DNA from: Methanolobus sp.
GTDB taxonomy: Archaea; Halobacteriota; Methanosarcinia; Methanosarcinales; Methanosarcinaceae
DNA length: 64,000 bases
Reading direction: 5' to 3'
Assembly (NCBI RefSeq): GCF_016278365.1
Contig: NZ_JADQBZ010000003.1
Span: forward strand, 62,001-126,000
Below the pieces are notes generated by a model. The model worked only from the letters and a program-made list of their open reading frames with translations, did not search any database and was not told the DNA's origin. The stretch's first letter is position 1. Every line of letters starts with the position of its first letter. Positions 1 through 20,319 of this stretch are shown one piece after another. The position numbers and the translations under genes were made by a program.

Positions 1-90
1 AATGATTTAATTAAATAATTATTGACTTCTGTAATGAAAAACTGTGTCTTGAAATAAGTTCTGCACTTTAAATATAAAAAGAGGTATAAG

Positions 91-360
91 ATGAAACAAA
101 ACTCAAGTGTGGAAGAACATATAAATGATGCAAGATGCCCAGATTCAACAGTAATGAAATTAGATAATCAAGAAGAGCATTCATGCATATATGCAATGAT
201 GGATTATTTGGTAGAAACTTACTATAATAGTGATGCGATGAAGAAGGTACTCAGCGGAGAAATAATTGTTAAATTGGAGTGTGGCATGTATTCTGCTGAG
301 GAGATAAAAATAATGTATGAGTGGGCAACTAGAAAATATGATGCCCTATTAGCTTTGTAA
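91..360 (+). CDS. Small hypothetical protein, 89 aa
   Basis: This ORF has an ATG preceded by a good ribosome binding site (AAGAGGT, 7 bp upstream), which supports it being translated. The product is acidic, soluble and probably mostly helical, with no signal peptide, membrane segment or cysteine motif. I do not recognise the family. It sits alone at the left edge of the island and converges on the restriction operon on the other strand, so it is not part of that operon. Its function is unknown. Confidence 0.5.
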   Translation: MKQNSSVEEHINDARCPDSTVMKLDNQEEHSCIYAMMDYLVETYYNSDAMKKVLSGEIIVKLECGMYSAEEIKIMYEWATRKYDALLAL

Positions 361-462
361 GGCAGGGTAAAAGTCATAAAATCACTATAGATTATGACCT
401 TTGAATTTTTTTAGCAGCTGTGAAGGAATATGATTTCATTCAGTCAACAAACCTGAAATTAA

Positions 463-3639: not shown

Positions 3640-6623
3640 GCCCCCATCAATCTCTTGAATTCGGGTTCAATAGGACATGCGTCTTTTACATAGAAATCAG
3701 AATTGATATAAGTTTTTGAAGGCTTGAACTCTTTGAGTAGTGTTTCCTCAATAAACTCTTTATCTACTTTGAGATCTATACCTTCACTATCTCTCCAGAT
3801 GATAGCAATTTTTTCACTATTTTTTGTTCCAATTACTACCTTATAATACACATCATTGTTTGTGAATATACGAACCTTCATGACGTGAAGACCTAGGAGA
3901 TAATTGAAAGTTTCAACTAAATCCACATTCTTTTCCTTGATTTCTTGTCTTTCAGTTATTTTCAAAGTATAACTGAAAGGTTTGGTGATTTTTTCGACAT
4001 TCAACCTGCAGGGACTATCCATTGTTTCAAAGTCAAGCATGTAGCGAAGGAAATAGCCATCCATATCAAGCAGTGTTCGTTGAACCGAACCAGATTGGGC
4101 AAATTCTATATTGTTGAGTGTATCTTCGTATTGTTCAAGTGATTGATATTTGAACATATGACTTATACCATCTTTTGACTGTGGCCTCCCATCTTTCCAA
4201 CTATCAGAAAACATCACTTTTTGAATACGAGGTTTCATGATTGTATCGAAATATTCTCCCATTTCTATGAGAATATACTTGCGGTTACCACCATCATTCT
4301 TGTTTAGATTAAGAACTGCATGAGCTGTAGTACCAGAACCTGCAAAAAAATCAAGAATAAGTGAATTCGAATTTGCACCGATAGAAATTATTCTATTAAG
4401 AAGCCTTACCACCTTTGGTGTCCCAAATACTTCTTCACCAGCATAAAGCATTGACTTTAATTCTTGCTTTCCCTCCTGGTTATGTCCAACTTCATTATAT
4501 GTCCATATCGTGACGGGTGTAATCCCATTTTTAACTTCTGAGAGAAATCGTTTTAACCTTGGAACATTCTTGCCTTCACTTCCAAACCAAATCCTATTAT
4601 CCTGTACTAATTCCATCATTTTTTGTTTTGTTGTGAACCAGCATCTGCTTTCAGGAGGTTCAATTACTCTACCTGAAGGGGAAGTTATCGGATAATTATA
4701 TTCCACACTATATGTTTTTACAGTTAGATTATCTGACATCCAAGGACCACGTGGATCATTGTCAGGATTTTGATATCTATTATTTTGCTCCTCAGTTCTT
4801 TCTAACTGATTCGGGCGCCATATATTTTTATTTTTAGAGAAACATACTATGAAGTCGTGATTATCTGAAAACCATTTTGCATCATTTTGTGGTGCATACT
4901 TTTTTTGCCATATTATATTTGCTACAAAGTTAGTATACCCAAATATTGCTTCCTGAAGCATTCTTGTACTAGCTTGTTCTCCTTCGTCAATACTAGTATA
5001 TATTGAACTGTCCTCAGACATTAACTGTTTAGCAATGTCTAGTCTATCGTGCATCATTGATAGCCAACTAGAATGCTGATAATTGTCCTTATACAAAAAG
5101 TCGTCATTTCCTGTATTATATGGTGGGTCAATATAAATACATTTTATCTGTGCAGCATAGGTATTTAGTAACAAGTTTAGAGCCTGCCAGTTTTCACTCT
5201 TAATCAATGTACCGCTTATTACTTCATCAATATCCTCAAAAGTTGCGAGAAGACGGTCTTTGAAAGATTGATCAAAAAATTTGGTGTCAAGCACAAGGTA
5301 CGGATTTTCTTTGAGGTCTATATTCTGGAGTTCAAAATCATGAAGTTTACTTTGAGTATTTGTTTCTGTATAGTAAAGTCTTTTCCATTCTTCTAGTTGC
5401 TCTCTATTTTTCAAAATCTCAGGATAGAGTGAGTCTGAAACCTTGTCTATTGTCAAGCAATATTCACATGTCAAAACAAATTTTTTTTTCTCAAAAAGCT
5501 TCTTCTGAAATTGTTCTATTTGAGCAAGAAAATCGATAACTTTCAAACAAACGGCCTTAATCACTTTTATCTGAGTGATGTATTGTTCTACGCTTATTTC
5601 ACTTTCTGTTCCAAGATTATCTATATTCAATATTTCGTTTTTAATGTAGAAATCTAATTCCTTCTTAAGGAAACCTTGCAAGTCTTTGTGGATAAAGTAA
5701 TCTGTAGTGTTCCTCTTTGTGTACCTAAGAAGATGCTTCATCAAAATAGTCTTGTCGTTGACTATTTTACTAAGAATTGTTTTTAGTCCAAGTTCTTCAA
5801 TATTTGACAAAACATTAGAATGAATAGTATTAAGGATAGTATCCTGAGTGTTTTTCGTTCCATATTTTGCCTCTTCACCCTTATTCATACTTCTATATTC
5901 AAAGAAAACGGTCATACTCTTAATATCACAATTATAACTTGGGTTGTTTTCCGATGATGTAGAAAGAACAAAATAACGTTTGTCTGCTTTGTTACTATTT
6001 ATTGAACTTTCAGCATCAATTAACTGGAAATTAATAGTATAGTTTCCTTCCTCGAATGTATAATTCCTGAAGTATTCCCCTGTTTTAATGTAGTATTGAT
6101 CCCTATTAGCCCAGTGAAAGAAAATTTCTTCCCCATTGTATGGAATTGCATATTTCTCGTTTTGTGAGTGTCTCCTAAGAGATAGGAAGTCACCATTATC
6201 ATAATAACGGGAGAAAAAGTGATAGATATGAGAATAAATATCCGTTTTATGCTGACTGGATAACTCCGCTTTTTTTGCAGCGAATCTTATTTCATTATAT
6301 TTTAATGCGAACTCTTGTGCTAGGGGTATTTGTGCATAAAGTGGTAAAATCTTCCCATTACCATCAACAATCATTGAACCAAAGTTTTTCTTTATTTCAG
6401 ATTCAATACCTGAAAGTTGTTCGTTCAGATGCTCTTGATCGGATTCTTCATACCTTGAAAATTCAGAAGTGACAGCAGAAATTAGATCATCATTGATGAA
6501 CTTCTCTATCTCATCTCTTTTTTTATTCATTATGCGGTATATTCCAAAGTCAAGATCTGCTGAGTCAAACTGGAATAATGTTCTTAGCAAGCTTCTAAGT
6601 TTTAGTTCGTAATTTTCAGGCAT
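3636..6623 (-). CDS. mod: Type III-like adenine-specific DNA methyltransferase (Mod) with long N-terminal extension
   Basis: This 995-aa protein carries an N6-adenine methyltransferase core of the beta class: catalytic motif IV DPPYNTGNDD near residue 498 precedes the AdoMet-binding motif DFFAGSGTTAH near 758, the order typical of type III Mod subunits. About 490 residues precede motif IV, far more than in a standard Mod of 600-700 aa. This extension belongs to a large-Mod family that usually sits beside a DEAD-box helicase. The gene starts 6 bp after the UvrD-like gene and overlaps res by ATGA. Mod is expected to supply target recognition and protective methylation. No frameshift or phase-variable repeat tract is visible. 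Confidence 0.88.
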   Translation of the reverse strand: MPENYELKLRSLLRTLFQFDSADLDFGIYRIMNKKRDEIEKFINDDLISAVTSEFSRYEESDQEHLNEQLSGIESEIKKNFGSMIVDGNGKILPLYAQIPLAQEFALKYNEIRFAAKKAELSSQHKTDIYSHIYHFFSRYYDNGDFLSLRRHSQNEKYAIPYNGEEIFFHWANRDQYYIKTGEYFRNYTFEEGNYTINFQLIDAESSINSNKADKRYFVLSTSSENNPSYNCDIKSMTVFFEYRSMNKGEEAKYGTKNTQDTILNTIHSNVLSNIEELGLKTILSKIVNDKTILMKHLLRYTKRNTTDYFIHKDLQGFLKKELDFYIKNEILNIDNLGTESEISVEQYITQIKVIKAVCLKVIDFLAQIEQFQKKLFEKKKFVLTCEYCLTIDKVSDSLYPEILKNREQLEEWKRLYYTETNTQSKLHDFELQNIDLKENPYLVLDTKFFDQSFKDRLLATFEDIDEVISGTLIKSENWQALNLLLNTYAAQIKCIYIDPPYNTGNDDFLYKDNYQHSSWLSMMHDRLDIAKQLMSEDSSIYTSIDEGEQASTRMLQEAIFGYTNFVANIIWQKKYAPQNDAKWFSDNHDFIVCFSKNKNIWRPNQLERTEEQNNRYQNPDNDPRGPWMSDNLTVKTYSVEYNYPITSPSGRVIEPPESRCWFTTKQKMMELVQDNRIWFGSEGKNVPRLKRFLSEVKNGITPVTIWTYNEVGHNQEGKQELKSMLYAGEEVFGTPKVVRLLNRIISIGANSNSLILDFFAGSGTTAHAVLNLNKNDGGNRKYILIEMGEYFDTIMKPRIQKVMFSDSWKDGRPQSKDGISHMFKYQSLEQYEDTLNNIEFAQSGSVQRTLLDMDGYFLRYMLDFETMDSPCRLNVEKITKPFSYTLKITERQEIKEKNVDLVETFNYLLGLHVMKVRIFTNNDVYYKVVIGTKNSEKIAIIWRDSEGIDLKVDKEFIEETLLKEFKPSKTYINSDFYVKDACPIEPEFKRLMGA

Positions 6624-6629
6624 GCTTTC

Positions 6630-9335
6630 TCACTTTTTATATCTGCAAATATCAACATAGTTGCATGTTCCACAAAATTCTCCAGGACAAGGAGTAAAGT
6701 CTCTGTTCATAATCCTTTCGATGTAATTTTCAGCAGCATTTGTTGTGGTTTTAAGAGTTGAGTCATCAACATTTACTGATTCTGTGATTGCATTTTCGAG
6801 ATAGGAAATTGAACCTTTTGCAACAGGTTCACCAATCATTTTAAGTCCTGCGGTATAGAGCTGTACCTGCATTGCAGCTTCTTCTTTACTTATGACTGAA
6901 TCGGAAGTTTTGTAGTCTCTTATCTCGATATTATCGTTGTCATGAAGGATCACATCTACTTTCCCCATTATGGTTGCCCTATGAAGTGGGAATTCAATCC
7001 TGCTTTCGACCTCTTTTATGCGCATCATGTCATCAACGTGTTTCTGGACAAAAGCAACTAGTTTTTGTTTCGCATTTTTCTTTGCATTCTCAAACACTTT
7101 TGGCCCTGCAAAAGGGAGATAAAAGTTTTCTTCTACCGATGTAGCGACTGCACTTACCGGACTGTATCCTTCATCTCTAATGAGTTCAGATGCATGCCTC
7201 AGGCAGTAATGAAGAGCATTACCATAACCAATCATTTCTTTAAGACCAGGTTGATATCCCCATACTTGGTTAAAGCGATATAGGTATGGACATTTTCCAT
7301 ATGTGAGGATTTCTCCTGCTGCAAATGTTTGAATATCTTCTATATCATAAGCGTGTGGAACCTTACAAATTGGCAATTTATCCTTTTCAATAATCTTTTT
7401 CATTTTAGATTGATCAAGTTCATGATTAATGAACGAACTTACTCCAACATTTGAATTCAATTGATTGAAATGACTTACGATAAGCATGTCTTTTGCTCTT
7501 GTAAGTGCTACATAGAAGAGCTTACGTTCACCATCAATATCTCCTTCATATTTTTCAGAATTAAACAGAGTCCTTGGAATATCCCAGTTTCGTAATCTTC
7601 CTGTCATCATTGATGGGAAACGCTTTTCCACCATCGCTGGTATGAAGACGACAGGCCACTCCAAACCTTTTGCTTGATGTACTGTCATCATTTGAACTGC
7701 ATTAATACCCTGAATTTCATCACCGGGTTGTTCTTCATACGATTTTGTAGCATGACTGTGCATGTACCAAAACAGTCCTTTTATATCACGATTCCAATTT
7801 TTTTTCCTTCCACCATACTTATTGGCAGATTCATAATCTGTCAGAAGAGTGCTGAATCTACCTAGATTTGCCATTATTACAGCATGGTTTGGATTATCAG
7901 GATTCAATTCTAGATATTCAAGTATGGTAAGCAATTCATAGTATAACTGGGTGAAATCATGGAATTGATCAGTCAGTACCTTTTCTTTCCACTTTGCCAA
8001 CTTCTCATTTATATCAGGTTGAAGAGATACATCAGGAACACCTATTTTCCAGTCTTCTACAGCTGAAGTAAGTAAATCATCGCCTTCTATACATTCTTTG
8101 CTCCATCTGTTATCTTTCCAGAAACCATTATCATAGAGCCAAACAAAAAGTTTTCCAATAGCTTTTATTTCAGGCCTTCTGAATAGACCGACCTTTCCAC
8201 CTACCATTAGAGGTATTCCTCTTTCTCTAAAAATATCAATGAACACAGGTCCAGATGTGTTTACACTCCTACAAAGTATGCCAATATCACTATAAACACA
8301 TGATTTGTCTTTTACATGGGCTTTGATTTGATCAGCAATCCACTCTGCTTCCCTTACATTATTTTCAAACTCCCCTAAAAAGACTTCTCCTTCTTCTGTT
8401 CTTGTAGGAGTTAAATGTGCATACTTTTTATCAAAATTATTCGAAAATTGGTTAGATAATCCAATGATTGATTTAGCACTTCTTCGATTTTCAATGATAG
8501 GAATTGTTTCGGTATCAGAGTAGTGCTTAACAAAATCTTCAAAGCATCCTTCATCTGAACCTCTCCACTGATATATCGTTTGTCTGGGATCTCCTACGAT
8601 GAATATCTTAGAATCATTCCCAATCAATTGAATTAATTTTTCTTGAGCACGATTAATATCCTGATATTCATCTACAATTAGATATTTTACATGCTCAAGT
8701 ACATCTGGATTTTCATTCAAATTCTCAATAGCAAGAGATATCATCCGATTGAATGTGAGTCTTCTATGAGAATCAAGAAGGTTCTCGTATTCTTCCATTG
8801 ATTTTAGGAAATCTGGAGCATGCTTTTTTATAAGTGATTTTGGAATTAGTTCTCCGTAAACAACACTCAAAGTTTCTAAAAACCTCTCACAGTTTGAAGA
8901 ATAACTACCTTTTCCAAGGCCAATATCCCAACCAAATCTCACAATAAAAGCCATTTCTTGATTTTCATCAAGAGCTCCATAATCACCATATCCAAAGTGA
9001 TCTTCTAATATTTGATTACAGTAGCCATGAATAGTTCCAATGAACAGTTCACCAAGTCTTGAACATATTTTCTCTTCACCTAGCTGCTTAATTCTATCAT
9101 AAACACGACTCTTCATGCTCTGGGCAGCTTTTTCAGTAAATGTGAAAGCGACAATTGAAGATGGGGCAACGTTTTCACATAAAAGAAGATAAACAATTTT
9201 TCTAGTAAGAGTTTCTGTCTTTCCTGCACCTGCACCTGCAATAATACGAACATGATTCTTAGTAGAAAGAACCGCATCTCTTTGGCTAGGAGATAAAGGT
9301 TTAGGTTCATTTAGTATTTTTTGCAATAATGTCAT
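6630..9335 (-). CDS. UvrD/PcrA-like helicase with C-terminal RecB-family Fe-S nuclease
   Basis: The product is a superfamily 1A helicase: Walker A AGAGAGKT near residue 35, Walker B VDEYQDIN, motif III GDPRQTIYQWRG, and a late motif VALTRAKD. The C-terminal 250 residues form a RecB/Cas4-type PD-(D/E)xK nuclease with VDVI, RDYKTS and QVQLY. It also has the AddB-like cysteine arrangement for a 4Fe-4S cluster: one Cys in GKCPYLYRF and three at the very C-terminus (CGTCNYVDIC). I use ATG 9335, behind GTGAG, rather than an upstream TTG at 9359. It is the first gene of the operon with mod and res, spaced by 6 bp, which implies a joint role. Such a helicase is not a standard type III component. Confidence 0.85.
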   Translation of the reverse strand: MTLLQKILNEPKPLSPSQRDAVLSTKNHVRIIAGAGAGKTETLTRKIVYLLLCENVAPSSIVAFTFTEKAAQSMKSRVYDRIKQLGEEKICSRLGELFIGTIHGYCNQILEDHFGYGDYGALDENQEMAFIVRFGWDIGLGKGSYSSNCERFLETLSVVYGELIPKSLIKKHAPDFLKSMEEYENLLDSHRRLTFNRMISLAIENLNENPDVLEHVKYLIVDEYQDINRAQEKLIQLIGNDSKIFIVGDPRQTIYQWRGSDEGCFEDFVKHYSDTETIPIIENRRSAKSIIGLSNQFSNNFDKKYAHLTPTRTEEGEVFLGEFENNVREAEWIADQIKAHVKDKSCVYSDIGILCRSVNTSGPVFIDIFRERGIPLMVGGKVGLFRRPEIKAIGKLFVWLYDNGFWKDNRWSKECIEGDDLLTSAVEDWKIGVPDVSLQPDINEKLAKWKEKVLTDQFHDFTQLYYELLTILEYLELNPDNPNHAVIMANLGRFSTLLTDYESANKYGGRKKNWNRDIKGLFWYMHSHATKSYEEQPGDEIQGINAVQMMTVHQAKGLEWPVVFIPAMVEKRFPSMMTGRLRNWDIPRTLFNSEKYEGDIDGERKLFYVALTRAKDMLIVSHFNQLNSNVGVSSFINHELDQSKMKKIIEKDKLPICKVPHAYDIEDIQTFAAGEILTYGKCPYLYRFNQVWGYQPGLKEMIGYGNALHYCLRHASELIRDEGYSPVSAVATSVEENFYLPFAGPKVFENAKKNAKQKLVAFVQKHVDDMMRIKEVESRIEFPLHRATIMGKVDVILHDNDNIEIRDYKTSDSVISKEEAAMQVQLYTAGLKMIGEPVAKGSISYLENAITESVNVDDSTLKTTTNAAENYIERIMNRDFTPCPGEFCGTCNYVDICRYKK

Positions 9336-9613
9336 TTTTCTCACTGCCCATATTATCAATTAATAAGCCAAAGAGAGTTAAATAAAATAACCTTGTACTG
9401 TATTATTTTGCTAACATATAACATTAATTGATAATCTCTATGCATATATATCTTCAAAAATGCTTTTGACTGAATGTAAGAATGATCATAATTTGACATG
9501 ATGTTCAAAATACAATAGCTTTTTACAGTTTAAATCAATCTGCTAGGTAAAATTATTTAAATGTTAAAGATTATATCTTTTTTAATATTTACTTTAAAAA
9601 CTGAGTGAAAAGC
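9336..9613. promoter_or_regulatory. Divergent promoter region between the R-M operon and the pAgo operon
   Basis: These 278 bp separate two divergent defence operons and contain no ORF. The DNA is extremely AT-rich, with several TATA-like runs on both strands, for example around 9550-9592 ahead of the plus-strand nuclease-APAZ gene. I cannot choose one TATA box with certainty and see no strong palindrome that would act as a shared operator. The layout allows coordinated control of both operons, but that is inference. Confidence 0.5.
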
Positions 9614-11020
9614 ATGCCTTTAATAAACTTAGAAGGAGAACGGGAAGCTACAACTCAAAATAGCGAAGAGTATGGAAAAAAAATTATTGATTTTCTTAAT
9701 TTGCAAGGTTATCACTTAGAACATGACTCAAATATTGAAGGTATTTTTCAGGACAAGGTATTCAGAAATCCAAAACTAGATGGGAACAAAAAAACGGTAG
9801 TAGAAGTAAAAGATACTGATTTGAGTTTAAACAACAAAGATTTTCTAGTAGAGTATGGCAAATATTTTATGATATACTCACGAGAGATTTTCAATTTGTT
9901 CATTTTCGCTAAAAAAATTGTAAATATTAATAAATGGAAAAAAATATTTGACTTGGCTACACAATCGGAAGATGAGATCCTTTCATTTTACGAAGATATC
10001 AAAAAATGCTCATCTGATAAGATTGATGAATATAGCATATTCAAGGAATTCATAATTCATACGAAAATTTATCAAACTACTTATGATAAATTGCTGCAAA
10101 AAATAGAACAAATTAAAAAAGACAATATATATGATTTTGAGGTTGATTACTTAAAGGACATAGAAGACTTAGTTTATGAACCAGAAATCTTGAATAGCAA
10201 TTTATTCATTGTCAAGTCATTTCCAGACTATATATTTAAGGCTAAATTAAAAGTGAATAGTTTTACTTCACTTTGGAAAAATCCTTTCGCAAATTCTTTT
10301 GTTGCATTTAATGGAATACTATATTCAATTCGTGAATTTCCTGAAAATATATTATCTGAATATTGTGATGAAAATACATATAACAAATTTAAATTTACAA
10401 ATATTGATTTAGAATCTGAAAGAAGGTTAGTTTCACAGCTTATAAAAAGCCAAATTATATTAAATGCTTTTGACAACGGTTTCTATTATAATCGAAACAA
10501 AAAAAGCTTCTACAAACCACATTTTAATCTTAGAATTGAAAAATCAAAAGTTAAAGTGGAAGATGAAAAATCAAGGGTAGTGTCAACAGTATATATCAAG
10601 GACGGAAATTTGAATTTTGTATCTCATCGTGCTGTAAAGATAGAAGTAACTAGAATTGAGAATGAATACTATGTTTTATTTAACAATTATAGATTGTTCA
10701 CTAATGATGGTAAACACCTAATTATGGGTGAGGGTGCTAAAAAGTTAAATAGCAAGTTTGCACCGACAAAAGCATTCAATGATGCTGAAAAAAGCAAATT
10801 GTTCTTTTTGATAAAAGCTATGGGTTCTCTAAGAATAGGTGGTTCCACTCAGTCGAAGTTAGACAATTCAAATCCATCAACTTTAAAAAACCAGTTTGTT
10901 TTTGAAGAAGTTACATTTAAAATGCCTTGTAAATCTAAAAAAGGCGAGGTTTTTGAAGAGAATTACGATTATGAAGAAAACGTCTATTCTAAAATAAGCG
11001 ATTATTATGATGAAGAATGA
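9614..11020 (+). CDS. PD-(D/E)xK nuclease-APAZ protein, effector partner of short pAgo
   Basis: This 468-aa protein is the effector subunit of a short Argonaute system. The N-terminus (about residues 15-90) has a restriction-endonuclease-like core with an acidic residue before a VEVKDT strand, the D...ExK pattern of PD-(D/E)xK enzymes. After a helical linker, the C-terminal half matches an APAZ domain (homologous to the N/L1/L2 part of long Argonautes): HRAVKIE, then YYVLFNNYRLFTNDG, then a lysine-rich helix. ATG 9614 lies 5 bp after GAGTGA; a GTG at 9605 is the alternative. The gene overlaps the pAgo gene by 14 bp. By analogy with SPARDA-type systems it would degrade nucleic acid once the complex senses invader DNA. 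The exact nuclease subclass is not determinable by eye. Confidence 0.78.
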   Translation: MPLINLEGEREATTQNSEEYGKKIIDFLNLQGYHLEHDSNIEGIFQDKVFRNPKLDGNKKTVVEVKDTDLSLNNKDFLVEYGKYFMIYSREIFNLFIFAKKIVNINKWKKIFDLATQSEDEILSFYEDIKKCSSDKIDEYSIFKEFIIHTKIYQTTYDKLLQKIEQIKKDNIYDFEVDYLKDIEDLVYEPEILNSNLFIVKSFPDYIFKAKLKVNSFTSLWKNPFANSFVAFNGILYSIREFPENILSEYCDENTYNKFKFTNIDLESERRLVSQLIKSQIILNAFDNGFYYNRNKKSFYKPHFNLRIEKSKVKVEDEKSRVVSTVYIKDGNLNFVSHRAVKIEVTRIENEYYVLFNNYRLFTNDGKHLIMGEGAKKLNSKFAPTKAFNDAEKSKLFFLIKAMGSLRIGGSTQSKLDNSNPSTLKNQFVFEEVTFKMPCKSKKGEVFEENYDYEENVYSKISDYYDEE

Positions 11021-12422
11021 AATGAATTACTTTAAAATAGAGTATATTCAAGAGCCACAACTACTTTTTAATGAGGGTGGAATCTCGTTAAATCCATGTG
11101 TTGGCTTAATTAAATATGGTCCACGTTTTGCAGGATCTAGCACTACAGAGTTCAAAACATTCAAGATTGGGATTATTGGTTCCTCTAAATCAATTGCTTT
11201 AACAAAACATTTATTTGAATCATTTTATATGAAAATTTTGCCAGATGGAGACATTAAACCATGGAAAATACCTTTCCCAGGGTTAAATGCGAATTCAAAA
11301 CTAAGATTTGAATTTATTTTCAATCCAGAATGGGAATCTATAATAGATTCCTTCGATTTTGAAAATTTAAAAGCAGCACAATCTTCTTCTGAAAGGGCCT
11401 TGGAACTGATTAAAGAAAGAATAATAACAATTTATGAAAAAGAAACTCCACCTGATATCATTGTAATAAGTTTTCCGATTGAATTTTACTATATTTGTGA
11501 ATGCTCAGACACAAAGAAACCCATGATAAAAGTAGGATTGGATGATTTTCATAATCGCATTAAATTATTGGCAATGCAGTTGAAAGTTCCTACCCAGATT
11601 ATAAGACCTGAAACTCTGCAGTTAGAAGGAACTCAAGAAAGATCTTTGGTTGCATGGAATATAGTTGTTGGAATGTTATATAAGTGCCAGAGAGGTCATC
11701 CTTGGAAACTCACTCATCTTGAAGAAAACACCTGCTATGTAGGAATATCTTTTTTCAAAGAAAAAGGTGAAGAAACACGAAGAGCAAGTTTAGCCCAAAT
11801 TTTTTTGGATACAGGGGAGAGCTTTGTGTTAAGGGGTGAGTCCTTTAGTTGGGCTAATAAAGATTATCCAAATAGTCCTCACTTATCTGAAGAAGATGCA
11901 CAAAGATTGATGAGTTATGTTTTAACCCATTATAAATTAATTAGAAAACACTATCCAGATAGAATTGTAATTCACAAAAGCTCAAACTTTTGGGATGATG
12001 AGCTGGAGGGATTCAAAAGCGCTACTAAAAATATCAAATCAAAAGATTTCATATCTATTTTGCCATCAGATTTTAAATTATTTACTCAAACATCTTATCC
12101 TGTATTAAGAGGTACCTTAGTATTAACTAAAAATGAGTCGATAGGCTTCCTATTTACGACAGGTTTTGTTCCTTCACTAAAAACATATCCTGGTTTTTCA
12201 ATCCCTAGTGCTCTTCAAATAAAACCCTTCGTTTTAGATACCTCGCTACTAAAAGTCTGTCGAGAAATATTATCTTTTACTAAGCTTGACTGGAACAACA
12301 CTTTTGTTTACTCTAAAATGCCGGTAACTCTATCGGTTTCAAGAAAAGTAGGACATGTAATGAGTGAAACTGAAGCTAAGAGAATATGCAATCTTGATAC
12401 GCACTATTACTTTTATATGTAA
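11007..12422 (+). CDS. Short prokaryotic Argonaute (MID-PIWI), catalytically inactive
   Basis: At 471 aa this is the size of a short pAgo with only MID and PIWI domains. The central segment KCQRGHPWKL followed by CYVGISFF is the typical MID-PIWI junction of short pAgos. The position of the first tetrad aspartate is Ser in VGIS, and no complete DEDX tetrad is apparent, so it should guide and sense rather than slice. Further PIWI landmarks are RIVIHKSSNF and the C-terminal segment MPVTLSVSRKVGHV. The start overlaps the upstream nuclease-APAZ gene, so a stable heterodimer is likely. Known short pAgos use small RNA guides to detect plasmid or phage DNA and then trigger the partner effector; that role is inferred here. 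Confidence 0.85.
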   Translation: MMKNEMNYFKIEYIQEPQLLFNEGGISLNPCVGLIKYGPRFAGSSTTEFKTFKIGIIGSSKSIALTKHLFESFYMKILPDGDIKPWKIPFPGLNANSKLRFEFIFNPEWESIIDSFDFENLKAAQSSSERALELIKERIITIYEKETPPDIIVISFPIEFYYICECSDTKKPMIKVGLDDFHNRIKLLAMQLKVPTQIIRPETLQLEGTQERSLVAWNIVVGMLYKCQRGHPWKLTHLEENTCYVGISFFKEKGEETRRASLAQIFLDTGESFVLRGESFSWANKDYPNSPHLSEEDAQRLMSYVLTHYKLIRKHYPDRIVIHKSSNFWDDELEGFKSATKNIKSKDFISILPSDFKLFTQTSYPVLRGTLVLTKNESIGFLFTTGFVPSLKTYPGFSIPSALQIKPFVLDTSLLKVCREILSFTKLDWNNTFVYSKMPVTLSVSRKVGHVMSETEAKRICNLDTHYYFYM

Positions 12423-12900
12423 AATTGAAGTGAATCTTACTGGCTACATCATCAATGGTAATTCGTCCCCCTGTATTTAGATAGATAAAATACTATGATA
12501 TGAAAAAGGTTACGTGGATAATCTTCACTGTACAGAGATATGATTTTGATACTGATTTTTTAGGATTTCTCTAGAATGCCTTTGATTTGTCCCAAGCTTC
12601 ATGAATCAAATCTACTTTTGGTACTAATATCTTTTCATATTTCTTCTTTTTTTATCAATATCAAATATTAGAAAAAGTATTTATTTCTGAAAACTTCGGC
12701 AATATCATTAGTTTCCTTCCATTGAATCAGAGATATGATTCTATGGAAATCCTCTCAAATAAAAAATCAGGCAGGTAAACAGCGAGGACATGGAGTGCAC
12801 AGAGAGTATTCAATTATGTATTCTGAGAACACTGGGAATATTTGTTCTACGTGCTTTCTGTAATAAGATTTTTATATTTTAACTCCCTAAGTTTTAGACG
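12423..12900. other. Gene-poor AT-rich spacer with a possible gene-end remnant
   Basis: No supported gene lies in these 478 bp. On the minus strand a short open stretch (about 12,571-12,645) reads as a plausible protein C-terminus ending DLIHEAWDKSKAF and then TAG. It is stopped again about 25 codons upstream, so it may be debris of a lost gene. Near the right end, a TATA-like run (around 12,868-12,880) about 27 bp before the next ATG suggests a nearly leaderless promoter for the TPR gene. Confidence 0.35.
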
Positions 12901-14016
12901 ATGTCGGAAGTTTCAACATTAGCTGAATGGGTTGAAAAAAGTGTTTTTGAACCAGATCCTAAAAAAGCGATTCAATACATTGACAATGCATTGGCATTTA
13001 ATTCGAATAACCAGGAAGCTCTCTATTTAAAATGTATGTTGCTTTATAAGGAAAAAAAGTATCAGAAAGCATATGATGTTGCATCCAAAATGATTGATTT
13101 AAAATATCAAAATGCGGAAGCATGGTATGCAAGAGGTCTAGTTTCTGAAAAAATCGATAAGAAAGGTCTTGCTTCGAAATGCTACGAAAAAGCGATTCAA
13201 TTTGATCCTCAGCATCATGACGCCTTACACAGTTTTATCGAGTTGAACAATTATCCGAAGTCAGCTTTGAAATATTATCGTTTGATCATTGAAATTGAGC
13301 CTGCAAATATTGATATTTGGATTAGACTTATAGATTCTGTCATTGAAGAAGAACAGTATTCAGATGCATTGAATGAAATAACAAGAGCAAGGAAATATCA
13401 TTTCAACAACAAGGAACTTGATAAGCGGGAAAGGAAACTGATAGTGCACTCTAAAAGTAAAGTGCCACCAAAGCCCAAAAAGAATAAGTCTGTTCCCCTT
13501 AAGAAAAAGCCAAAGGAAGAATTGCGTAAAAAGCCTGAAATTGTAGAAGTGATCCCTCAAAAAAAGGAAGTGCTAAATAATATTGAAGTAGGAGATTTTT
13601 ACAATGAATGGGATTCTCCAGCTCCAGTTACCATTTATTGTCGAATGTACAATATTCCTTATTCATCTTATAAATATTATCAAACCCGTTCATCTAGTGA
13701 AATAAAAATCAAGAATATAGAGGACCACTTAAATGCAAGGAATTTGAATTGTATGTGTTGTTCATTTTGTGTAGGCAATATATGTACATACAAAAAGAAA
13801 CATGTTGTTTCAAGTTCCATTTGCAAGCATTTTAGTCCGAAAAAAGGAATACAGTTAAAAAATATTCATTTAAATACGAATAAAGAGAAAAGATTCAAAT
13901 GTCCATATTGTAATAAAAAGTCTCAACGAGATGAAAATATCGCTGAACATATGAGAATAAAACATCCCCACGAATTTAAAAACCATTACCCCAATTATAA
14001 CCAAAGCATTTTCTAA
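12901..14016 (+). CDS. TPR protein with C-terminal cysteine cluster and C2H2 zinc finger
   Basis: This 371-aa soluble protein has at least three to four tetratricopeptide repeats in its first 170 residues (for example AWYARGLVSEKIDKKGLASK, then YEKAIQFDPQ). A very lysine/proline-rich linker follows (residues about 185-225), then a cysteine-rich stretch CMCCSFCVGNIC, and at the end a classical C2H2 finger: CPYCNKK, then HMRIKH. TPRs mediate protein-protein contacts; the finger and basic linker suggest nucleic-acid binding. A TATA-like element about 27 bp upstream and the lack of an SD suggest a leaderless transcript. It stands alone downstream of the pAgo operon. No specific function can be assigned. 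Confidence 0.7.
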   Translation: MSEVSTLAEWVEKSVFEPDPKKAIQYIDNALAFNSNNQEALYLKCMLLYKEKKYQKAYDVASKMIDLKYQNAEAWYARGLVSEKIDKKGLASKCYEKAIQFDPQHHDALHSFIELNNYPKSALKYYRLIIEIEPANIDIWIRLIDSVIEEEQYSDALNEITRARKYHFNNKELDKRERKLIVHSKSKVPPKPKKNKSVPLKKKPKEELRKKPEIVEVIPQKKEVLNNIEVGDFYNEWDSPAPVTIYCRMYNIPYSSYKYYQTRSSSEIKIKNIEDHLNARNLNCMCCSFCVGNICTYKKKHVVSSSICKHFSPKKGIQLKNIHLNTNKEKRFKCPYCNKKSQRDENIAEHMRIKHPHEFKNHYPNYNQSIF

Positions 14017-14123
14017 TTCATTAATCTTAAAATCCAAGAGTAAAATTAATAGTTGAATATCTTGGATATGTAAAAGAAGCCTTATTTCGAGATACTATTT
14101 TCCTCTTTAAGAATGCTTATGCT

Positions 14124-14348
14124 CTATTTGTTTTTCAACTTCTCAATCAAAGAAGACACTCTCTGCTTTGCATCATCAGTTTCTTTTTCATCCTTCACAA
14201 CGCTAATATCGAGGATATCCCCTTCTTTTGAACCAGAAGGAAGAAGGGATACAGGAATATCCACTTTTATGGTTTCTGCATCCCTGACAAGAAGTACTGC
14301 AATATCTCCCTCTACCCTATCCAATGTTACTCTGAAATTGCTTTTCAT
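14124..14348 (-). CDS. DUF3006-like small protein
   Basis: The product is 74 aa from the ATG at 14348, which has a strong AGGGGGAT ribosome binding site; a TTG one codon upstream is less likely. The pattern LDRVEGDIAVLLV, then IPVSLLPSGSKEGDIL, is that of DUF3006, a small beta-rich domain often encoded next to ComEC-like metallo-beta-lactamase proteins. That is the case here: the gene follows one in the same orientation, 10 bp after its stop. The role of DUF3006 is unknown; the constant pairing suggests it assists or regulates the hydrolase. Confidence 0.72.
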   Translation of the reverse strand: MKSNFRVTLDRVEGDIAVLLVRDAETIKVDIPVSLLPSGSKEGDILDISVVKDEKETDDAKQRVSSLIEKLKNK

Positions 14349-14358
14349 CAAAATCCCC

Positions 14359-15372
14359 CTATGCTTCTGCCATTAGAGAAAAGTTCATAGCATTCATTGG
14401 GAAAACCAATCCTTTATTTTGGGTCTCTACAGTGTATTCTTTACCATCTGTTTTTACAACAATGTGTCCTTCAATATCTGTTCTATATATGTCAGATCCA
14501 AGACCCCTTAGTCGGGCAATTACTTCTTCTGTAGGATGTCCGTAACGATTGTCAGTTCCAACCATAATTATACTTGCTGCGGGATTGACTTTCTCAAGGA
14601 ACTCTATACTGGTAGATGATTTGCTTCCATGGTGGGCAACTTTCAAGATTTGACTTTCAATATCAATCCCTGATGCAAGGATTCTTTTTTCAGCATCTAT
14701 TTCAGTATCCCCGGTGAATAGAAAAGAAAGATCTCCATAAGTCAATTTCAAGACAACGGAGTCATCATTTAGTTTCCCTGTAGGTTTTTCAGGATTAAGA
14801 ATCTCGATAGCAAGTGAAGGATCAAGTTCTATGGTCTGGCCTGCTTCTGCAAGACTGAATGGGATATCCTTTTCGTCAATGGCAATTAGCATGTTCTCAT
14901 AGGTTTTGGTAGTATGTGGATTTCCACTATCAACGAACTTCTTTACCTTGAAGTTGTTTAATACAGTTACCATTCCACCGATGTGGTCAGCATGTGCATG
15001 TGTAGCTACAATAACATCCAGTTCTGTAACACCATTATCCTTCAGGTAATTTACAACCGTATTTCCTGCTTTCTGTTCACCTGCATCAATTAGCATGTTC
15101 TTATCCTTAATTTGAATGAGGATTGAATCTCCTTGGCCCACGTCAATGAAATGGACAGTGAGGATGCTTTGGTCTATTGTCGGCAATGGGGGTTCAGGCA
15201 GTGATACTTCGACCAAAGAACCGTTTGCTATTACATCTGCATTGGGCTCTTGTTGTGAATCTTCAGATGAATCCAATATAATTGAATCGAATGATTCAGA
15301 TGAAACGCAACCTGATGTAATGACCAATATCAAGGATATTAGTGCAAGTGCGAGTATTTGTTTTGCTTTCAT
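14359..15372 (-). CDS. Secreted ComEC/Rec2-like metallo-beta-lactamase-fold lipoprotein
   Basis: This 337-aa protein begins with a lipoprotein signal peptide ending in a lipobox-like VITSGC (Cys near residue 22). The mature part is a metallo-beta-lactamase domain of the ComEC C-terminal type: FIDVGQGDSILIQ, the metal-binding THAHADHIGG, then GDTEIDAEK and KVAHHGSKSS. Proteins of this type are predicted extracellular metal-dependent hydrolases, possibly acting on nucleic acids in DNA uptake or scavenging. There is no membrane channel domain, so it is not full ComEC. GGGGATGAG lies just before the ATG. It forms a two-gene unit with the DUF3006 gene downstream. Confidence 0.85.
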   Translation of the reverse strand: MKAKQILALALISLILVITSGCVSSESFDSIILDSSEDSQQEPNADVIANGSLVEVSLPEPPLPTIDQSILTVHFIDVGQGDSILIQIKDKNMLIDAGEQKAGNTVVNYLKDNGVTELDVIVATHAHADHIGGMVTVLNNFKVKKFVDSGNPHTTKTYENMLIAIDEKDIPFSLAEAGQTIELDPSLAIEILNPEKPTGKLNDDSVVLKLTYGDLSFLFTGDTEIDAEKRILASGIDIESQILKVAHHGSKSSTSIEFLEKVNPAASIIMVGTDNRYGHPTEEVIARLRGLGSDIYRTDIEGHIVVKTDGKEYTVETQNKGLVFPMNAMNFSLMAEA

Positions 15373-15772
15373 AATCTCATCCCCTTGAAATAAGGTGTTT
15401 CTATATACGGTTTGATATATAAATAGGGCATCGGATAGTGTGGGATGTAATATGTAGTAATTATTTTATGCGAGCCTTAAATCTATTTAGGAAGGCATAA
15501 ATATGTAAATGAATATTGGATTATCCGTGGCGCAGCAAGACATAATAATTAAAAAATACCAACCAACCTTTTTTGATTGCTGCGCTGTTATTTGTTCATT
15601 AAGTATCACATTCCTTAAATCATATAGGTTAGGACAAGACGAATTTCTACGAGTTATTGATACAAGCCCATTTGGTAAGGATGAGTATTACATATGAAAA
15701 GGCATTAGCTTTATATACTTACTTCTTAAAATATATTTTGTAATAAATTAAAATATATATGTAAGAGGTAAA
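15373..15772. other. Intergenic stretch with a 9-bp inverted repeat
   Basis: This is a 400-bp AT-rich gap. An inverted repeat, GCGCAGCAA at 15,530-15,538 and its exact complement at 15,577-15,585, is separated by 38 bp. It could be a weak RNA stem or the trace of a small mobile element. A 62-codon ORF covers it but has no ribosome site and resembles nothing I know. TATA-like runs just before 15,773 probably drive the next gene. Confidence 0.35.
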
Positions 15773-16108
15773 ATGGCGTATAAAAAAGAAAGCACTCATC
15801 ATGGTACAAAAATGAAACTATTTGCTGAATTTATCAAATATTCAAAATATGACTTTAGTGGAAACCCCAGATGTGTGGATCTTGTTGATGTCCGGAAAGA
15901 AAACGGAAAGCTCGTGGCAAAAAGAATTTGTTTAAGTTACATCAATCGATTTCAGGGAATAGGGGAGTTGAAAACAGGCGATCGGATTTCGTTTATGGGA
16001 TGGGTGCTAATGGGCAAGGTAACTCATCCAACAAGGGTTACAAAGGTTATAGCATCCTTAGTATCAGAGGAAATACCTCTAAAACCTTCACAGATATCTT
16101 CAGATTAA
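15773..16108 (+). CDS. Small hypothetical protein, 111 aa
   Basis: The ATG is preceded by AGAGGT, and AT-rich promoter-like DNA lies just upstream, so this is probably a real gene. The product is basic and soluble, with a beta-rich middle (RISFMGWVLMGKVTHPTRV) that could be a small barrel, although no known motif is present. There is no signal peptide or membrane segment. It stands alone, downstream of the divergent ComEC-like gene, inside the island. Function unknown. Confidence 0.5.
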   Translation: MAYKKESTHHGTKMKLFAEFIKYSKYDFSGNPRCVDLVDVRKENGKLVAKRICLSYINRFQGIGELKTGDRISFMGWVLMGKVTHPTRVTKVIASLVSEEIPLKPSQISSD

Positions 16109-16492
16109 TTTTTATAATTAGTTGCGGTATCTATCTATCCTATGTACATAAGACTAATAGTGATGATATATGGAAGTTGTAAAGGATTGGATTGATAACA
16201 TGCAATTTTTATCGGAATATACTTCCAACATGAGTTATTGAAGTATGATGGATCTTTACAGATGATGTGAAGAACCTTCCAATTGGCACGACATTGAGCT
16301 TTCTCCTAAGAGATTGTATGTTACAGACTATCATTAAAAAACTGCTTATATGGGAAGATGGGAAATGGATAATGTATTAATGTCATCCTTCGCCTTCCTT
16401 CAAAACTTATTCTTATTTTGTTTTAGCACATCCTGAAACTGCTATACAGCTAAGTATAAAAAAAATAAATATATCGTTTTCATGATTTCACC
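16109..16492. other. Gene-poor AT-rich spacer
   Basis: I see no supported ORF, RNA gene or clear repeat in these 384 bp. Short open stretches are broken by stops in all frames, consistent with decayed sequence in a mobile region. Confidence 0.4.
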
Positions 16493-16999
16493 TTATAGGT
16501 TATCTATTGTTGATTGTGCAGAAATTCTATTTTGCCTAACATATGCAAGATTTGAATTCAAAATCGACTTCTGTTTAAAATAATATTCGGAATCTATTTT
16601 TTTAAGTGCATCTTGATTTTGTTCAAGAAAAGCAAGATAATCTAAAATTTGAGTTTCATATATATTAGATTGAATAATGAATAAATTACTTTCACGTCTG
16701 ACATCATCTCCTTTTTTATTCTTTTTAGTTTGTGTTGCTGAAGATGTTTGTCGGGAATAAGACATTTGGTTATATTCATCAATAAAATCATTATAATCAT
16801 GAACTGCAATTTGTGAGCTATCAAATGATTGTTGATAATTATTATATGCAATAGTAAGTTGATTACTGTACATTTTCATTTCATCAGTAATATCCTGATT
16901 CATGTAAACTGTAGCAACTTTAGAAGCAGTTTATGTTTCTGCGCATCCAGAGATTGCAACTAGTGCAATTACTAATAAAATAAAGATATAATTTTTCAT
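16493..16999 (-). pseudogene. Lipoprotein gene interrupted by an in-frame TAA after the signal peptide
   Basis: Reading from the ATG at 16,999, the sequence gives a complete lipoprotein signal peptide, MKNYIFILLVIALVAISGC, then AET and an in-frame TAA (16,933-16,931). The same frame then stays open for about 145 codons to a stop at 16,493. The remaining body is a helical, glutamine- and asparagine-rich, non-membrane protein that would be extracellular. The internal ATG at 16,903 has no ribosome binding site, so it is not a convincing native start. The simplest reading is a recent nonsense mutation in an otherwise intact gene. A sequencing error or stop-codon readthrough is possible. I do not recognise the body. 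Confidence 0.65.
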
Positions 17000-17728
17000 T
17001 TTGATCACTTTATTGTTTTGAATCATATATTTATATAAATAATTAATATATTTTAAATTACACTATCTTAACATACTAATTTATTTGTATATAAGTATAT
17101 GTCCTTTCAATTCAGAAATTGTCTTGACTGAACTAAAGGCACTATTAATAATTCATTCACTGCTATCTGTCCAATATAGAACAAAATAGAACCTTTTAAA
17201 AATGCGTGAACAAGACTTCAAGTAATTGTTTTTTCATTTGCGGCACATCCGTTCAAATAATTGCAATTTAATTTCACTACCAATTACCAAATGCTCGAAA
17301 TACTATTAAGATAATTTGATTTAGCAAATTATTATTACCACTAGCGATTACAAGGAACATAAAGAAGAATGAAGAAAATAAGAACTGAATGGTTTAAAAG
17401 TGAAATGAACTAGTTCATTTATAAATTTATACTCAACTTTTAGCAATGAATCTGATTAGGTCAAGATTCATATGCAGTTTTCGACCCATTTTTTCTTCAC
17501 TTTAATCATCCTATAGATCATCTATTGAAGCAGAAGAGGTAGGGATTCTGGCAGTTTGAAGGAAAATTCGATATTATGCTTGAAGTATAATATAACATTC
17601 TAAATAATATGTTAGATTTATAGCATTTCACCTTTTTATCTGTATTCTACTGATTGCGATTCTGGATGTTTGAAAATTGCCACAATACATTTTTATAGTA
17701 GTTGTTAGATTTTAATATATGTGATAAA
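17000..17728. other. Long AT-rich non-coding stretch before the integrase
   Basis: This is the longest gap in the island, about 730 bp. I find no ORF with a ribosome site, no tRNA and no tandem repeat. TATA-like DNA is scattered through it, for example around 17,030-17,055 and 17,585-17,620. An attachment site could lie here beside the integrase, but I could not identify one. Confidence 0.4.
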
Positions 17729-18349
17729 ATGATTTACGCTAAAACAAAGAAAAATAAAAATGATAAAGAAATAGTGCCATATTCAAAGGAATGGCTAAAG
17801 GTATCTGAATTACAACAAATATTAAGTATGTCTGACCTTTCCGAAAAATATGAAGTATGGGTATCATTGCTTTATTATCCCGCCCTTAGAGTTTCCGAAG
17901 CCCTCAACATAAGAGTGCGTGATATTGATTTTATAAACAATTGTGTCGAAATCTATAATGCAAAAGGCGTATACGACCATGATTTACGAAAAGCACCACT
18001 TCCGAAAGAGGCACAAAAGACACTATCAAGATACATTAAAAATCATAATTTAAAACCAGATGATTATATTATGTTTTCAAATAAAGCATCCCAAGTATCA
18101 AGAAGTCATGTATATGTGGTTGTGGGGGAATTATGCAAACATGCAGGGGTTGACAAATGTATCGGAACCCACACTTTCAGAAGGTCAAGAGCACAACATC
18201 TATTAGATTCAGGTGTTCCACTGATAACGGTTTCCAGATATTTAAGGCATAAAAGTATAGAAACCACTATGCACTACCTTCATTATTCGATTGAGGATTT
18301 ACAAAAAGAACTAAGCAAACATGATGAACCAATGCAGAAGGTAATTTAA
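17729..18349 (+). CDS. Tyrosine recombinase (XerC/D-like integrase), short form
   Basis: The protein is 206 aa from the ATG at 17,729 (a TTG nine codons upstream extends the frame). It is essentially only the catalytic domain of a tyrosine recombinase: first catalytic Arg in ALRVSEAL (near residue 54), HTFRRS for the H-x-x-R box, then RHKSIETTMHY with the second His and the nucleophilic Tyr. The usual N-terminal SAM-like core-binding domain is nearly absent, as in several archaeal Xer and plasmid recombinases. It faces another recombinase on the opposite strand. Its likely role is excision, integration or dimer resolution of the island. Confidence 0.8.
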   Translation: MIYAKTKKNKNDKEIVPYSKEWLKVSELQQILSMSDLSEKYEVWVSLLYYPALRVSEALNIRVRDIDFINNCVEIYNAKGVYDHDLRKAPLPKEAQKTLSRYIKNHNLKPDDYIMFSNKASQVSRSHVYVVVGELCKHAGVDKCIGTHTFRRSRAQHLLDSGVPLITVSRYLRHKSIETTMHYLHYSIEDLQKELSKHDEPMQKVI

Positions 18350-18443
18350 AATGGAAAAAGGGGAATGAATTATGGCAGGGGTGTGTAAGTATGCCTTTGC
18401 CAAACAAACTCAACCAGTGAAATTTAAAACATTCCTAGAGGGG

Positions 18444-19799
18444 TTATGAATCCCCTTCCTCTTCAGATGCCCACATCTCTTTTTTCCACTGCTCAATTTC
18501 ATCTTTGGTCATTGACTCTGTATGTGTCATACCAAATACATCTTTCAAGATTCTTTCATGCATCTCTAACTTTTCATTCATTTTATCATAGTCAGGGTGC
18601 CCAAATTTAACGATTCGCATATCTTCTGCAATACTAAGAGAATCCATAACGGCAATAAATGCATTAATAATTTTTTCATCGGTAACTTTACCATAAGATT
18701 GAGTAACGTCTAATTTATGCCCCATTGCTATTTTTTTAACAGTGTCGCCTGCAACAGCAATTACTTCGCCCAAATGATGCCTCATTGCATGGGAACGTAA
18801 CGGAGAATAACCCCCATTAATACCCTTAACACCGTGGTCAAATTGCAATCTCGCATACATTTTGACGATGTTTTTCCCACCTAATGCACGTTTTGTGTCA
18901 TCATAGGAAATGATATCACCATCATTATCTAGTTTTATAACTGGTTTTTTCATTGCTTTTTTAATAAACAATTTATCGTTCTTCTCATTAAATACATGCC
19001 TTTGTAAGTAGGTCATTCTGTTACTGCTTGGATAAGGTGGTTGCCTGTTACGTTTTTCTAGATATTCCTCAATTAATAGACAACATTCATTAGATAGTAT
19101 TGTCGTGTATCTAATTCTAGTCTTTGACCTTTTCTTTTTTATAAGGCAATATTTAATTCTGTTTCCTTCTGAATCAGTAATTTCTCTAAGCCCGCTTTTA
19201 AAATCATCTACAGTAAGATTGCCAATATCAACAGCAGATAAACCACTAGAATAACCAGTTGCAATAATGCATTTTTCAATTAAATCGCTTTTATTGAATA
19301 TATCTAATAATTTTTCATGTTTTAACTGGTCGGTTATATTCTCCTGCCTATCAATAGTTTCTACATCATCAAATTTGATTTTAAAATCAATATTAATTTT
19401 AAGTCTTTTATAGAATTGCATCACATTTGTTACATCGTTGGATGCAGTTGACCCTCTTACTTTTCTAATATTGATTAACCAATACTTAAAGTCTAGAAGT
19501 AACTGCTCAATTCTAGTTTCATCTGATTGGATATTAAAAGAATTAATGAAATATTCAGCAGTCTTGCCTTTATTCTCAGATTCATCTTTATATTGATATT
19601 CCATTGCCTTACCGTATAAAATGGAAGGGGTGGCATCTCTCATGTTATAACTTTCATTATTTCGTAAAAAGTAAAGAAATTTACGAAATGATAATGCTTT
19701 GTTTCTCCTTGTATCTTTATTATTATACAGTGATACCCATTTTTGAAAAATTATATCCTCTGCAACAATGGAATCCATTTCTAAGAAAATATTATCCAT
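18444..19799 (-). CDS. Phage-type tyrosine recombinase, full length
   Basis: At 451 aa this has both an N-terminal core-binding region (residues about 20-150) and a C-terminal catalytic domain. The H-x-x-R box is HAMRHHLGE, followed by GHKLDVTQSYGKV with His and the presumed nucleophilic Tyr. Where the first catalytic Arg is expected (the GLR position of SGLRxxD), the sequence reads SGLSAVDIGNL, with Ser, so either the alignment differs in this archaeal subfamily or activity is altered. The C-terminus is a charged helix ending EEEGDS. It lies at the right boundary of the AT-rich region and is the best candidate for the island integrase. Confidence 0.75.
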   Translation of the reverse strand: MDNIFLEMDSIVAEDIIFQKWVSLYNNKDTRRNKALSFRKFLYFLRNNESYNMRDATPSILYGKAMEYQYKDESENKGKTAEYFINSFNIQSDETRIEQLLLDFKYWLINIRKVRGSTASNDVTNVMQFYKRLKINIDFKIKFDDVETIDRQENITDQLKHEKLLDIFNKSDLIEKCIIATGYSSGLSAVDIGNLTVDDFKSGLREITDSEGNRIKYCLIKKKRSKTRIRYTTILSNECCLLIEEYLEKRNRQPPYPSSNRMTYLQRHVFNEKNDKLFIKKAMKKPVIKLDNDGDIISYDDTKRALGGKNIVKMYARLQFDHGVKGINGGYSPLRSHAMRHHLGEVIAVAGDTVKKIAMGHKLDVTQSYGKVTDEKIINAFIAVMDSLSIAEDMRIVKFGHPDYDKMNEKLEMHERILKDVFGMTHTESMTKDEIEQWKKEMWASEEEGDS

Positions 19800-19866
19800 A
19801 CTATTCTAGATGTATCTCAAAATACATAAAAGCAATGCATCTCTCATGGAAGCATAATACCATCCG

Positions 19867-20319
19867 ATGCTGCTGTCACTGAAGATAGGCGGAGCGTGGA
19901 GCTATTCCGCAGAGCACCTTAAGTGTATCTCAGTCATGCAGGTTCATACAAACTATGATAAGACTACAAAGACCGGCAATACTATTGAAATGATCTACCT
20001 GCTGGTGAATCCTGAAACTGTGGCAAAAGAGGGAGTAGTGAATCGGCTGGAGAAATGCGGGAACCGGGAAGAGCGTGTGTTACTCACACGACCTTATTCC
20101 ATAACCCTCAGGGCTGAGAGGATAATAGCGGCAAATATCAGTACCGAAAAAAGGAAAATCACTGTACACGAGGTCTGGGAGAAAGTGGTTATGTTCACGG
20201 GTCCATCTGCGTTCTATGCTGCCCACGAGATGGAGCATCTGGAACATATTGAGATAGATGGGCTCCCAATGTGGGCATTTAAATATGAAATAGCAGATAC
20301 AGAACTCGGACCCGATTAA
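19867..20319 (+). CDS. Hypothetical protein, possibly 5'-truncated at the island boundary
   Basis: This 150-codon frame lies exactly where AT-rich DNA gives way to GC-richer DNA. The codon use is like the chromosome. The ATG at 19,867 has no clear SD and follows an in-frame TAA only four codons upstream in island-like DNA, so the true N-terminus may have been lost when the island inserted. The product has no signal peptide or membrane segment and contains HEMEHLEHIEIDG near the C-terminus, a His/Glu-rich stretch reminiscent of metal ligands. I do not recognise the family. Confidence 0.45.
   Translation: MLLSLKIGGAWSYSAEHLKCISVMQVHTNYDKTTKTGNTIEMIYLLVNPETVAKEGVVNRLEKCGNREERVLLTRPYSITLRAERIIAANISTEKRKITVHEVWEKVVMFTGPSAFYAAHEMEHLEHIEIDGLPMWAFKYEIADTELGPD

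Follow-up and report, generated by a model that had tools for sequence, protein, structure and literature searches.

The first catalytic arginine of tyrosine recombinases (Arg I) is normally held to be essential. In the IntCTnDOT subgroup, however, some members are reported to be missing this residue, and the CTnDOT integrase is described as using a downstream arginine instead (PMC8138268). Archaeal integrases have been reported with short att sites, down to 8 bp, and with protein-coding genes among their targets; the 14 thaumarchaeal insertions in protein-coding genes described there are 3'-distal (PMC8371274, PMC6563490). For resolution-type recombinases, the dif site is described as two 11-nt arms separated by a 6-nt spacer (PMC8371274), and the Methanosarcina plasmid pC2A carries SsrA, a non-essential tyrosine recombinase encoded beside direct and inverted repeats, for which a role in segregation is discussed (PMC9569500).

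We analyzed a 64,000-nt stretch of a 2.87-Mb archaeal genome (Methanolobus; C5:62001-126000, hereafter the window). An earlier note on this DNA had placed two unlike, convergent tyrosine recombinases at the sharp edge of an AT-rich island. That description holds for the open reading frames, for their convergence (94 bp lie between the two genes), for the catalytic-domain-only build of the shorter enzyme, for their position at the edge and for the base composition. We read the two enzymes, with a probability of about 75%, as the recombination module of one integrative, probably plasmid-like element, in which the long recombinase integrates and the short one probably resolves.

An integrated element in a split host gene

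The island has a GC content of 0.319, compared with 0.429 in the 10 kb of its left flank and 0.457 in the 40 kb of its right flank. The composition switch reported at about 19,860 is real, and its position is that of an attachment core. The island had been assumed to start at window position 1, but it reaches 20.6 kb further upstream, and only the right half of a 40,447-bp element falls inside the window (Table 1). The earlier note had proposed looking for an empty site in island-free genomes and for att direct repeats at the island edges, and had held that the same 0-20 kb block, found as stable core sequence in relatives, would speak against mobile cargo. Both searches succeeded. The flanks adjoin without the island in all five relatives compared (G026, G021, G006, G023 and G013), so the objection falls away, and CCATCC is present at both edges. 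The blocks that match the flanks have exactly these 6 bp in common in G026 and G021; the other three relatives (G006, G023 and G013) differ in target sequence and give overlaps of 4, 6 and 4 bp. The block with the defense cargo is an integrated element, with the features of a site-specifically integrated, tyrosine recombinase-type one: an empty site, a short direct repeat at both ends and a recombinase gene beside one end, 60 nt from the core.

Table 1. Features of the element and its target, in window positions unless marked C5
Feature	Position	Strand	Remarks
Integrated element, whole	C5:41413-81859 = window -20587 to 19859		40,447 bp
Right half of the element	1..19859		empty sites in 5/5 relatives; host-gene halves at both ends
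Type III restriction (Res, Mod) and UvrD/RecB-like helicase with Cas4-like C-terminal stretch	463..9359	-	cargo
Nuclease partner (PADLOC Aga_REase_Archaea) and short prokaryotic Argonaute	9605..12422	+	cargo
loxP/dif-like palindrome (AACA-N12-TGTT core)	17589..17618		dyad 11/15; TGTT about 115 nt upstream of the short recombinase ATG
Second right half-site copy (TGTTAGATTTT)	17703..17713	+	just before the start codon; from alignment of 10 upstream regions; possible operator
Short tyrosine recombinase, probable resolvase	17729..18349	+	catalytic-domain-only; ORF 17702-18349, likely start ATG 17729
Long tyrosine recombinase, probable integrase	18444..19799	-	451 aa; Ser188 at Arg I position, R224-x-K226, H337-x-x-R340, H361, Y369
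Right-end inverted repeat	19833..19847		14/15 identical to left copy; both 12 nt from core
Attachment core CCATCC (attR)	19860..19865		left copy C5:41413-41418
Host gene, 3' part	19867..20319	+	PF05618-like; 182 codons in G026; 5' part past the left end

Both ends carry a 15-nt inverted repeat, a match that 7 of 20,000 randomly paired island stretches equalled; the right copy falls in the 60 nt that separate the core from the long recombinase gene. We do not claim a copy of this arm motif in attB: the signal was suggestive for the window element, where random trials were as good in 2 of 400 cases, and for its M. psychrotolerans sister (G009, below; 9 of 400), the two empty-site versions were weaker (14 and 44 of 400), and the copy is absent for G007, the second sister (118 of 400). 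In the mechanism we propose, the long recombinase would recombine two copies of CCATCC: the core on the circular form of the element, which lies between inverted-repeat binding sites, and the identical hexamer in the host gene. This recombination would split the gene; the boundaries of the split are observed, and the long enzyme would be its agent.

The element resembles those of other archaeal integrases in its tyrosine recombinase, short att site and protein-coding target, but its core is shorter than the reported 8 bp (6 bp here and 5 bp in M. psychrotolerans), and the insertion falls near codon 31 of about 182, unlike the 3'-distal thaumarchaeal cases. The first 31-32 codons of the host gene begin at C5:41324, 40 kb from the 3' part, and as read from the sequence they run into a stop after 36 codons; the host gene is therefore broken. 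A search of 99 other genomes found this gene in 32 (33 of 100 when its own genome is counted); 31 of these 32 have it in an open frame of 173-242 residues, and in G017 stops interrupt the frame. Because its match to PF05618 scores 26.4 bits, just under the cut-off of 27, 'zinc protease' is merely a label. At the right end of the element (19823-19866) an A/T-rich, TATA-like stretch precedes a new ATG (19867) of the broken gene, from which a shortened host protein might be made.

Among the cargo, the short Argonaute and its archaeal-type restriction endonuclease partner are matched by PADLOC at E 1e-134 and 5.6e-101. The island also encodes a ComEC-like metallo-hydrolase (14359-15372; 144 bits to NCBIfam ComEC_Rec2, cut-off 190), and in its left half a small ORF (L043:9605-10081, or C5:51605-52081) weakly matches the C-terminal end of Cas1, below cut-off, at E 4.8e-4. 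The element is probably an integrated plasmid-like replicon carrying defense genes. Its replication we infer, because its 461-aa protein has no Pfam match and a sole, weak match among plasmids.

The short recombinase and its upstream palindrome

The short recombinase matches PF00589 at E 5.1e-30 over residues 31-195, and no core-binding domain was found in it. The best match of its catalytic domain is XerA (5hxy, E 2.1e-14; NCBIfam XerA_Arch). The latter score, 115.2 bits against a cut-off of 220, and its length of 215 aa led us to reject XerA as its identity. We also set aside kinship with SsrA of pC2A (BLASTP E 0.094): SsrA likewise is a tyrosine recombinase of a Methanosarcinales plasmid beside repeats, but it is full length (314 aa) and has no significant similarity to the short enzyme. 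In an alignment of ten loci, window included, R63, K88, H157, R160 and Y192 do not vary, and nine of the ten retain the second histidine (H183). Six pairs gave dN of 0.08-0.30, with a dS of 3.6 in one pair and values not computable, and taken as saturated, in the other five; we read the short gene as being under purifying selection.

A site with dyad symmetry lies 89-161 nt before the start at all ten loci, with dyad scores of 8-13 of 15. Because these sites were picked by hand from the alignment, the scores are no independent test, and at the two weakest loci (L067 and L068) 1-3% of local 30-mers score equally. The palindrome pattern has one exact match across this genome and 13 in 30 genomes (own included); the reversed pattern, used as a control, gave 4. 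Of the 13, five precede a short recombinase gene (G000, G009, G007 and, twice, G015), one lies at the beginning of a contig, close to a partial copy of the short-gene upstream region (G015:C28), and seven are away from the upstream region of any known short gene. With the Cre/loxP site as comparison, the locus has what such a system would show: a dyad near the gene at 10 of 10 loci, though picked by alignment, and a single pattern match in this genome. Its likeness to XerA and dif lies in the best match of the enzyme and in a dyad site near the gene; it differs in that the short enzyme has no core-binding domain and in that the arm-and-spacer layout is known for dif, whereas the palindrome here is set by its dyad only.

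We hypothesized that the short recombinase acts at its own palindrome, where it would resolve multimers of the excised circle. Its catalytic residues and upstream palindrome fit this role, which the earlier note had hinted at in speaking of a recombinase plus a resolution partner, and the enzyme is probably a resolvase. A DNA invertase of the FimB/FimE kind, flipping a promoter segment between two upstream half-sites, would share the catalytic-domain-only build and would account for the two conserved copies of the upstream site, and tyrosine-type invertase models give weak matches of 46.4 and 34.8 bits (against cut-offs of 221 and 222). However, the right half-site is repeated directly, not inverted, and we consider an invertase unlikely.

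Of the 12 short genes or gene fragments, 4 have a long gene no more than 30 kb away, one of the 4 being an interrupted copy in G015:C51; 0.45 would be expected (P about 6e-4) under a null built on a hand-compiled list of long genes. This co-location speaks for a joint recombination module. It could also mean that the short enzyme helps the long one in excision, as an accessory factor. We give that idea somewhat less credence than the invertase, since the short recombinase has its own conserved upstream site and the other eight copies lack a long gene at that distance, five of them having none on the same contig; these eight copies weigh against the joint module too.

Sister elements

The ends were solved in all three elements attempted: that of the window and two sisters, which are laid out alike. 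The M. psychrotolerans element (G009; 10,616 bp) sits inside a LysE-type gene (PF01810) with the core TCTTG and end repeats identical at 14 of 14 positions (0 of 5,000 random pairs as good); in G019 the corresponding LysE-Trm5 arrangement is uninterrupted. The second sister (G007; 14,886 bp) lies inside a Cdd1-type gene (PF11731), again uninterrupted in G019, with the core TTGATAGATG. Its repeats, which a first scan with another anchor overlooked, agree at 14 of 16 positions (1 of 5,000 random pairs as good) and stand at unequal distances from the core, their offsets differing by 4 nt. The distance from the core to the start of the long gene is 60 nt in the window element, and 61 and 50 nt in the two sisters. 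The earlier note had supposed that one or both recombinases mobilize the cargo; in the three elements examined only the long one is placed like an integrase, and the short one is not so placed.

Four other tyrosine recombinase loci have a 323-aa protein in common with the window element, two have its DUF1699 protein and one has the 111-aa ORF at 15773. D5-type primase-helicases are present in three of the loci that share genes with the window element; the island has the 461-aa protein instead.

The arrangement in M. psychrotolerans bears on a further suggestion of the earlier note, nested insertions, by which the short recombinase would mark a second element within the first. The short gene does occur in other genomic settings of the genus, and two of its loci (L068 and L065) have further genes in common a few kb off. 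In six of seven locus pairs, however, the DNA match around the short gene comprises the gene, or part of it, plus at most about 190 nt upstream, and in the seventh pair (L068/L065) the short gene itself is unmatched at the DNA level. Nesting is also unneeded, because the bounded 10.6-kb element of M. psychrotolerans holds both genes within a single pair of ends, the long one at one end and the short one near the opposite end. We therefore regard it as improbable. An IS605-type transposase gene in G009 lies outside this element. At L066, L067 and L069 (G009, G030 and G019) a short recombinase is found near the same conserved genes (TFB, LysE-type and Trm5-type), a neighborhood that is possibly an integration hot spot.

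The long recombinase and its missing arginine

In its working, the element is of a known integrative kind; its long enzyme does not fit the canonical tyrosine recombinase motif. Its only Pfam match, to PF00589, is below cut-off (E 5e-5). Across the 16 members of the long family, PF13495 (N-terminal SAM-like) was found in seven and PF16795, weakly, in 11. A profile of the 16 matches PaXerA (4a8e) at E 2e-14; the single sequence had no match among solved structures or among plasmids. Profile-profile comparison aligned the long and short families in the C-terminal part only. At E <= 1e-20 the long family is present in 32 of the 149 genomes sampled from the class, a count that includes its own genome, and in 7 of 31 genera, and scans of viral contigs with the short enzyme, the long enzyme and alignments A2 and A3 found no relative. 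The long gene is intact and the core lies outside it, unlike in an SSV-type suicidal integrase.

Measured against the canonical R-K-H-R-H-Y set, the long enzyme keeps K226, H337, R340, H361 and Y369 but has Ser188 where the GLR box would hold Arg I. In the alignment with PaXerA, the arginine of XerA 'GLRVSEL' sits over a column of A, S or G in the long family, and an invariant arginine of the family, two residues before the catalytic lysine (K-2), stands opposite a XerA glycine. Read one by one, all 16 aligned members have S, A or G in the Arg I column. No arginine is found there in these 16 or in 19 further loci, and K-2 is arginine in 16 of 16 and in all 18 covered of the 19. A second alignment of 31 loci, made of 12 from the 16-member set (11 relatives and the window) and the 19 others, gave arginine in the Arg I column in 0 of 31 and at K-2 in 30 of 30 covered, L125 being uncovered. 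Six of the 31 (L120 and L125-L129) aligned partially or in split form. R224, K226, R335, H337, R340, H361 and Y369 are among the residues invariant in all 16 members, which makes R335 another invariant arginine besides R224; in L124 and L125 a lysine replaces the third histidine. Three loci among the nearest relatives of the window enzyme (L004, L005 and L006) have an arginine one residue after the Arg I column, which could serve there. A structure prediction of two sequences (window and L079) had a mean pLDDT of 36.8 and was discarded.

The long family resembles the IntCTnDOT subgroup, which also has members without Arg I at the usual place; R224 would be the counterpart of the downstream arginine of the CTnDOT integrase. 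It differs in that the IntCTnDOT enzymes are bacterial and have a recognized arm-binding domain, and in that Arg I is missing from some of those members but from every archaeal member examined. We take the replacement arginine of IntDOT to be R285, two before K287 and so at the same spacing as in the archaeal family, and R225 of the Tn1549 integrase to be Arg I. The literature we searched yielded the IntDOT precedent and no archaeal case of a missing catalytic arginine. The absence of Arg I and the invariance of the arginine at K-2 are observed, and R224 is probably the relocated catalytic residue, which would take over from Arg I.

That the short recombinase is instead the island's integrase and the long one a degenerate relic, a case argued from the absent Arg I and from the use of Tn1549 Int R225K as an inactive catalytic mutant (as reported in PMC5871717), is very improbable, given that the long ORF is intact, that its family retains K, H, R, Y and an extra arginine, that the long gene lies 50-61 nt from one end in 3 of 3 elements, and that the short gene varies in position, 1.5 kb inside the window element and near the far end in M. 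psychrotolerans, with a search for short genes giving none near the G007 element.

The long enzyme is likely the integrase of the element, for which excision, replication, resolution and catalytic replacement are steps that we infer. A wider reading, which we offer tentatively as a possibility short of even odds, would join these parts: a Methanosarcinales family of active integrases in which Arg I has moved to K-2 independently of bacterial IntDOT, which would insert defense-bearing plasmids inside host genes via 5-10-bp cores as reversible knock-outs, while a separate, minimal Cre-like recombinase would keep the excised circle monomeric. The window element shows a way for Argonaute and restriction cargo to spread in methanogens, and its exact att sites make excision testable by PCR. 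A family without Arg I that is yet found in clean-bounded elements would be a natural test of how an active site is rebuilt, and a filter for the R...HxxR...Y motif would overlook it.

In-frame TAG codons occur in three long-family genes, L125, L126 and L120 (in G046, G132 and G060), the last of which also has TGA and TAA. TAG can be read as pyrrolysine in Methanosarcinaceae, and some of the TAG-bearing genes may be readable rather than decayed.
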